Assembly: GCF_031200575.1 (NCBI RefSeq)
Contig: NZ_CP133597.1
Location: forward strand, 930,001-994,000
Direction of reading: 5' to 3'
From: Ferroplasma sp.
GTDB taxonomy: Archaea; Thermoplasmatota; Thermoplasmata; Thermoplasmatales; Thermoplasmataceae
Length of the DNA stretch: 64,000 nt
The notes beneath the pieces are model-generated. The model had not been told where the DNA came from. It searched no databases and saw only the letters and a program-made list of their open reading frames with translations. Positions 38,815-40,243 of the stretch are shown here, one piece after another. A program made the position numbers and the translations under genes. How positions within the stretch are numbered: the first letter of the stretch is position 1; the number at the start of each line of letters is the position of its first letter.

Positions 38815-38921
38815 TGATCTTATACAGTAATCTGATCCTCAATATTTGTCCATTATTTCTTAAACACATCGTATAATACCGTCAAAATCATTTATATTTT
38901 CCTACTATGAAAAACCTGTAC

Positions 38922-39986
38922 TTAACAATCTTTTATGCCTCCTCGGTATATTAAATTTGCTGAATCGTCATGCACCTTAACATTGCCTGCAAGTTTATTC
39001 ATGTTGTTTTTTTTCTTCAATGATAGTTCTTCAAGCCTCTTGAAGTACAGTTCATCAGGATTGACTGTTCCCTCTCTTTCCTTTTCAATGTATCTTACAT
39101 TGTTCTTTAGCATTGAATAAATTGTTTCTGCTAATATTCTTGCTATGACTATTATAGGTCTCTTCTTCTCCAATCTTCTTACTATGCTCAGATACTTGGT
39201 TCTGAACTTCTTTGTAAACCTTATAAGTGAATGTGCTGTTTCGACTAAAAAGAACCTCAATAATGGTGATCCATGCTTTGTTATATGTCCCTTTACTATT
39301 GTTTCACCTGATGAATGCTCACCGGGTATTAAACCCGTATATGATGCAAATTTAAGTTTATTCTCGAATCTGTTGATTGTTCCTATTTCTGATAGTATTC
39401 CTGCTGCTGTGTAGAAGTTTATTCCTGGAATTGTCATCAATAATTTTATATTATCACTGCTGTTTGCTATTGAAGATATTTCTGTTTCTATTTTCTTTTC
39501 CCTTAATCCTTTCTTTCCGAATGGGTCTGTAGCTTTTATTATTATTCCGTATGATGTTAATAATGCATGTATTTTATTCTTTTTTAAAGTTATTTCTTCA
39601 CCAAGGGAATGTCTGTACCTTACCAGAGACCTTATATTCTCTATATCTTCCGATGGAACATATATCTCCTTCATTCCTCCCTTTCTGAATACATCTGCAA
39701 GCTGGAATGAATCCTCCCTGTCTGTCTTCTTAAAATTGTTAGCTATTTCAGGTACCTTCGCAGGATTTATCAGGTGTATTTTATAACCTAAAATTTATAA
39801 CTCCTTGCTGAGATATTTGCCTGATGTAGATGATTCTATTACAATATCATGATCCTTGCAATTCAATAAAAACCCATTGACTGCATCCATATTATTCTCC
39901 ATATTCCTCTGGACAATAATAGTACCGTTATCCTCCATTACAGTCCCGTATACGGAACGTTTATGTACATCCAAGCCAATTACCAT
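38922..39986 (-). pseudogene. IS110-family transposase interrupted by one in-frame TAA
   Basis: The frame is continuous for 355 codons except for a TAA at 39795-39797. N-terminal part: 'MVIGLDVHKRSVYG' (first catalytic Asp) and 'HDIVIESSTSGKYLSKEL'. After the stop: 'GYKIHLINPAKVPEIANN', 'TDREDSFQLADVF' (further acidic residues), then the C-terminal Tnp_20 domain with 'LLMTIPGINFYTAAGILSEIG' and 'GLIPGEHSSGE', which contains the Ser nucleophile. Everything else looks intact, so the lesion is recent. A C-terminal piece could start at ATG 39674, but it would lack the catalytic acidic residues. Confidence 0.9.
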
Positions 39987-40019
39987 TTAATCACCTCTAA
40001 TGATTCTGTGAGAGTTAAA

Positions 40020-40175
40020 ATCGTAGACTCGACAAACTCCTATTCACCTTATTAAATATTAATGAGGTATGAAATCGAGTCTAAGGGCGGCTATTCTTTA
40101 GGACGGCCTTAAAGGTCAGGAAATATAACAACCGCCTCCGATTCTCACAGCTATCTCGTCATATAGCTGAGGCAA
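40020..40175 (-). ncRNA. Candidate IS110 bridge RNA
   Basis: Read on the minus strand toward the transposase there are three consecutive folds. First, stem-loop C (40144-40154 with 40163-40171, 9 bp with a 2-nt bulge). Second, stem B (40086-40090 with 40132-40136) enclosing a large internal loop and an inner hairpin (40096-40102 with 40107-40114). Third, stem A (40025-40032 with 40075-40082, 8 bp perfect) enclosing an internal loop and an inner 10-bp hairpin (40046-40055 with 40059-40068). A 5' stem-loop followed by two looped stems is the layout of the IS110-family bridge RNA. The loop strand TTTCAT in stem A is complementary to ATGAAA in both terminal repeats. Function is inferred. Confidence 0.6.
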
Positions 40176-40243
40176 AATAAGGTTTTTCATGATTTCCTTA
40201 TATATTCTCCAGTATTGCTATCGGGTTTTATTTATTCAGATCA

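Follow-up and report, generated by a model that had tools for sequence, protein, structure and literature searches.

A probable bridge RNA gene upstream of a decayed IS110-family transposase in Ferroplasma, and its guide loops in related archaeal elements

What is encoded by the noncoding DNA that precedes an IS110-family transposase in an acidophilic archaeon? The question is raised by a stretch of 64,000 nucleotides from Ferroplasma sp. (NZ_CP133597.1, positions 930,001 to 994,000; hereafter the window), part of a Thermoplasmatales genome of 1.86 Mb, in which an earlier reading made from the letters alone (the sequence-only reading) had proposed a bridge RNA. Our analysis indicates that the minus-strand noncoding DNA upstream of the transposase very probably encodes the bridge RNA of an archaeal IS110-family element that has decayed. 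Bridge and seek RNAs have been characterised in bacteria, and the accessible (open-access) literature held no archaeal bridge RNA with its guides worked out; an earlier description of archaeal cases, or of the flips discussed below, is possible. The window family would provide a bridge RNA from acidophilic archaea; its targets vary among copies of about 90% identity, and the core dinucleotide has changed naturally in one instance.

The predicted RNA folds on the minus strand as had been claimed, into a 5' hairpin (40169-40148) followed by two stems (40136-40086 and 40081-40026), both of which hold an internal loop and end in a capping hairpin. The bridge RNA layout recognised by the sequence-only reading therefore stands, while the closing stem around both loops had been overlooked. 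The parts are as follows.

40017..40169, minus strand: probable bridge RNA gene, structured part (covariance model R1, window score 202 bits)
40148..40169, minus strand: P1, the 5' hairpin (7 pairs, 6 with two-sided changes)
40139..40145, minus strand: closing stem, 5' arm AGAATCG, pairing with CGATTTT at 40017-40023
40017..40023, minus strand: closing stem, 3' arm CGATTTT
40086..40136, minus strand: P2 with the target-binding loop; inner hairpin 40105-40117
40026..40081, minus strand: P3 with the donor-binding loop; inner hairpin 40046-40068

Support for this structure comes from an alignment of 31 homologous 5' regions of Thermoplasmatales. Because RNAalifold did not recover the donor stem from the raw alignment, the structure was set by hand and tested with controls. 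Two-sided changes were found in 24 of 44 pairs (shuffled mean 14.9; 9-16 with slid partners) and in 149 cells (shuffled mean 54.9; at most 23 with slid partners). Of all cells, 87.0% were paired, a share that fell to 78.7% on shuffling and to 36-43% on sliding the partners; the observed figure is biased towards the structure, which was set on the same alignment, whereas the two-sided changes are not. The closing stem, which encloses both loops, forms a family-wide helix of 10 pairs with 84.5% of cells paired, and the outer helix of P2 reaches 93.1%, with two-sided changes in six of its seven pairs. Stem covariation thus places the fold beyond chance, and the compensatory changes among homologous elements that had been suggested as a check are abundant. 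The window RNA itself has a minimum free energy of -54.2 kcal/mol versus a shuffled mean of -42.4 (z -2.73; 2/200 shuffles equally good), and the RNA of the relative L107 gives z -4.56. R1 detects the RNA in 20 of 390 genomes of the phylum under strict filters. An Rfam scan of the window returned two tRNAs only and no family for the bridge RNA.

The element was delimited by aligned copies and conserved ends. Its order is 7-bp extension, inverted repeat, bridge RNA, GAGGTGA, transposase, inverted repeat and 3-bp extension, with cores at 40197/40196 and 38903/38902 (minus strand).

38902..40197, minus strand: whole IS110-family element, about 1.3 kb, core to core; degenerate, non-autonomous
40191..40197, minus strand: left terminal extension, 7 bp, GG-AAATC, outside the inverted repeat
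40181..40190, minus strand: left sub-terminal inverted repeat ATGAAAAACC
39991-39997: Shine-Dalgarno-like GAGGTGA, conserved
38922..39986, minus strand: transposase pseudogene (DEDD, IS110 family), interrupted by TAA at codon 64 and shortened by an in-frame deletion of 30 residues
38907..38916, minus strand: right sub-terminal inverted repeat GGTTTTTCAT
38902..38906, minus strand: right terminal extension AGT (3 bp) and core AG

The left-end core is AG in nearly all intact copies and GG in the window copy. Relative to these ends, each loop of the RNA carries a 5' and a 3' guide.

40118..40128, minus strand: 5' target guide (LTG) TTATATTTCCT, with the sequence of 38892-38903, the right-end flank, on its plus strand
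40096..40103, minus strand: 3' target guide (RTG) TCCTAAAG, AG core at its end; reads the left-end flank, weakly in the window copy
40071..40076, minus strand: 5' donor guide (LDG) GATTTC, complementary to the left extension GAAATC
40037..40043, minus strand: 3' donor guide (RDG) ATAGGAG, same as the right end of relatives, CATAGGAG; the window copy has CATAGTAG

The target loop is hypervariable among copies that are otherwise about 90% identical, and its variation follows the flanks. Read on the gene strand, the left flank, which terminates in the core AG, has the sequence of the RTG (3' side of the loop); the LTG, on the 5' side, has that of the right flank in reverse complement. For RTG and left flank the score was 122 versus a permuted mean of 69 (N=44, 5 positions, core excluded; z 8.1), or 2.77/5 per copy versus 1.55 for crossed pairs (p about 5e-5, 0/20,000 permutations as high), and p was still about 5e-5 when the match was restricted to the 37 distinct RTGs. 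For LTG and right flank the score was 51 versus a permuted mean of 27 (N=15, 6 positions; p about 5e-5). In the window, the resemblance of the first-loop strand (40128-40118) to TTATATTTTCCT at 38892-38903 was borne out, with one extra T in the DNA; among the 15 right-end flanks its own is the best match, and the match score is reached by only 297 of the 127,972 14-mers in the window. The ATTTCCT at 40192-40198, taken earlier for the other flank, is actually the 7-bp left extension plus one base.

Several observations weigh against the bridge RNA reading. The permutation test takes related copies as exchangeable, and in the window copy the match of guides and flanks is imperfect (one LTG bulge, a weak RTG, and core GG versus AG) and the transposase is dead. 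Furthermore, several intact copies match their flanks poorly, e.g., in the LTG of L059 and L081.

The second loop follows the element ends. The left extension and the first 5 bases of the LDG agree in five states (GATTT, GACAT, GACCT, GACAC and ATCAT), and the right end and the last 7 of the RDG in four (ATAGGAG, ATAGAAG, ATAGTAG and ATAGAGG), the match being 4-5/5 on one side and 6-7/7 on the other in all states seen. The inverted repeat itself is not read by the donor guide, because it stays ATGAAAAA while the guide changes. Accordingly, the pairing of TTTCAT with ATGAAA in the inverted repeats, on which the sequence-only reading had relied, is not conserved (in clade B the LDG is GACATAAT while the repeat is still ATGAAAAAAG), and the donor pairing is that of GATTTC with the end extension. 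The other check that it had proposed came out in its favour: in other copies the loops follow targets and ends alike. The homology, the conserved structure and the tracking of target and donor are all direct observations. In the distant element L210, from another lineage of the phylum (UBA33), both ends have GG as their core on the gene strand, the RTG ends CGG, the RDG ends AGAGG, and the LTG ends TAGTAGTTC, with ACAGTAGTTCC as the reverse complement of the right flank; the core, both target guides and both donor guides have changed together, to fit.

The position of the RNA, directly upstream of the start codon and with the 3' arm of the closing stem just before the Shine-Dalgarno-like motif, would also suit a structured leader, that is, an attenuator or 5' untranslated region regulating transposase translation without any guiding role. 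We find this highly improbable, as a pure regulator leaves unexplained both the hypervariable loop that follows each copy's flanks and the second loop that follows the element ends. The RNA may be both guide and regulator.

A different alternative accepts the guides and holds the RNA to be an unchanged IS621-type bridge RNA with the IS621 reading direction. Indeed, the IS621 bridge RNA (PMC11208160, PMC11208158) shares the 5' hairpin, the two internal loops on capped stems with LTG/RTG and LDG/RDG, the CT core on the read strand, and a location upstream of the transposase, a DEDD enzyme with the same fold. However, in IS621 (L110) the LTG ATCGGGCCT is the same as the gene-strand left flank ATCAGGCCT and the LDG the same as the right end, and that polarity, applied as a control to clades A and B, was null (p 0.27-0.94, including 0.27 and 0.91). 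The IS621 RNA query was validated by 99% matches in E. coli genomes beside annotated IS621 transposases. R1 matched no IS621 or IS1111 RNA at E up to 1, the loci searched being those of IS621, ISEc11, IS4321 and spirochaete relatives, and the sequence models show no cross-detection. Compared with IS621, only the window family has 10-bp inverted repeats, 7/3 extensions and a stem enclosing both loops. An unchanged IS621-type RNA is thus hardly credible here. The earlier assignment of one loop to the target and the other to the ends holds for the bridge RNA reading that we prefer, with the amendment that the target strand is read opposite to IS621.

In active relatives, we infer that the RNA is produced and bound by the transposase. 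The first loop would pair with both target strands around the dinucleotide core, the LTG corresponding to one strand and the RTG being complementary to it, and the second loop would pair likewise with the joined element ends, presumably in a circular intermediate; the recombinase would then swap strands at the cores, the recombination chemistry being likewise our proposal. On the strand that the RNA would read, the target is LT-CT-RT and the donor junction, lying between the 10-bp inverted repeats, is CAT-GAYNY-CT-NCT-ATG. The transposase strand of the window's kind of element (clades A, B and D) is opposite to this reading strand, and that of clade C coincides with it, because the two ends are exchanged.

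Clade C is a sister clade (L235-L240, five species) with a homologous RNA (R1 E 1e-10 to 1e-14), also upstream of the transposase, and a homologous transposase. Its left end is CT-ACT-ATGAAAGAAG, with a 3-bp extension, and its right end CTTCTTTCAT-GACAC-CT, with a 7-bp extension, so that, judged by sequence, the ends are exchanged relative to clades A, B and D. The RTG here equals the reverse complement of the right flank (25/36 versus a permuted mean of 16.7, p 0.0028; best cases L240 with 10/10 and L239 with 7/7), the opposite polarity being null (p 0.97-0.98), and for the LTG the equality is with the left flank (p 0.019 without bulges, 0.001 if these are allowed). The guides are therefore read in IS621 order, and the exchanged ends are matched by the donor guides. 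Misplaced boundaries, or assemblies in which different elements have recombined, might produce such an arrangement artificially: two-ended elements of clade C number only six, those that can be named come from metagenome assemblies, and none was seen in an isolate. We consider such an artefact unlikely, since both ends are conserved across five species and both the target guides, with their null opposite polarity, and the donor guides agree with the exchange.

Seen from the RNA, all clades are alike, LTG-CT-RTG and LDG-CT-RDG (CC in D). In the transposase tree D branches first, followed by C versus A plus B, and one flip on the C branch would be the simplest account, because D shares the A/B arrangement. 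The difference in guide order reported between IS110 and IS1111 RNAs thus has its origin within a single RNA family, where the RNA-transposase cassette has apparently been turned relative to its ends. It is probable, in our view, that the cassette of bridge RNA and transposase works in both orientations relative to the ends and flips between the inverted repeats in evolution, with the reading by the RNA constant, and that this difference is not a separate mechanism. With both orders in one RNA family the relation of IS110 to IS1111 becomes directly testable, and an orientation-free cassette would offer one extra degree of freedom in element design for programmable recombination.

The classification of the family is mixed, inverted repeats, 7/3-bp extensions and guide order being of IS1111 type and the RNA upstream of the transposase of IS110 type. 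Bridge RNAs and seekRNAs are structured noncoding RNAs in which one loop matches both target strands and another the ends, and the window family agrees with this. As in IS1111 elements, whose inverted repeats range over 7-17 bp, the repeats are sub-terminal (ATGAAAAACC/GGTTTTTCAT, ATGAAAAAAG, ATGAAAACTG) with extensions of 7 and 3 bp, and the IS1111 guide order, in which the top strand is complementary to the 5' guide and equal to the 3' guide, is seen in A, B and D and is absent from C. The IS1111 location downstream of the transposase is found in none of the clades, the RNA being upstream in all, as in the IS621-like IS110 group. The IS110-group combination of an LTG equal to the left flank on the gene strand without long inverted repeats is lacking, the polarity being null for A and B; that order occurs only in clade C, which also carries inverted repeats. 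According to PMC11187229, IS1111 seekRNAs (ISEc11, ISKpn4, ISPa11) share the sub-terminal inverted repeats, the 7-bp/3-bp extensions and the top-strand complement first; they lie downstream of the transposase, unlike the RNA of the window family, and clade C has the other order. ISEc11 (L172), with 5' guide CAGTATTTT, 3' guide GTGAAAATA and target GTGAAAATACTG, showed the IS1111 order, as published there. The same paper names IS1111-type exceptions, with noncoding regions upstream in ISMtsp17 and on both sides in ISHvo10 and ISAcp5; these resemble our family in having an RNA-sized noncoding region upstream of an IS1111-like transposase.

The earlier assignment of the transposase to the IS110 family was confirmed. 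PF01548 and PF02371 scored above cut-off, as did NCBIfam NF033542 'IS110 family RNA-guided transposase' (235.8 bits vs 140), and the protein has the DEDD RuvC domain and C-terminal Transposase_20 domain with SG motif of the broad IS110 family (invariant D6, E51, D89, D92 and S256-G257). An AlphaFold2 model from a 15-row alignment (pLDDT 82.8) found its best PDB matches in the IS621 and ISCro4 recombinases in bridge RNA complexes (E about 1e-12, TM 0.53-0.56); next came box C/D ribonucleoprotein and Tas proteins, as expected for the superfamily. In the tree, ISEc11, IS4321 and spirochaete relatives stand next to the family, which is a supported clade of its own (91/95); the deep split from IS621 is weak (70/63). 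Longer IS110-family transposases (374-408 aa) of other Thermoplasmatales genomes (L011, L017, L019) fall outside the family, and their loci gave no R1 match.

Relatives carry intact transposase genes of 380-390 aa; the 30-residue loss in the window was judged against L052. Other copies examined in the window genome are also dead, truncated or frame-shifted. A sigma-70 promoter scan gave no signal above chance, with a model that does not apply to archaea. In the relative G006, homology with the uninterrupted locus reaches CCT at 38903 and diverges beyond. Among relatives, the search for an exact empty counterpart of the window insertion was negative, the left flank being present and the right side diverged or carrying another insert. 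At the orthologous intergenic site (L272, G006:C11:67100-70200) the uninterrupted left target TTATATTTTCCT is present, and next to it lies another insert, of about 2.4 kb, with genes for an ATPase-like and a nucleotidyltransferase-like protein.

Some copies without a transposase were also observed. L085/L191 (G006:C23:505-666) consists of the left end and the RNA and stops exactly at the RDG sequence AATAGGAG; the bases beyond, TTGCATAA, form an exact reverse complement to the LTG of this copy, TTATGCAA. The right end recurs in the RDG in same-strand orientation, so that transposase-less mini-elements could arise if the DNA from the RDG to the right end were deleted, or if the RDG were used as an end; this is a single case. 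The partial copies L048, L203 and L194 were rejected as mini-elements, as their RNA copies are broken up by a different insertion sequence, with an end of about TGATRTTGGATAGTGATT, which occurs in both orientations. Finally, clade B and clade C elements abut left end to left end at L207 about 3310 (G011:C3) and L213 (G077:C58). The clade C target guide there resembles the clade B end, and one family member therefore seems to have used another's end as target.
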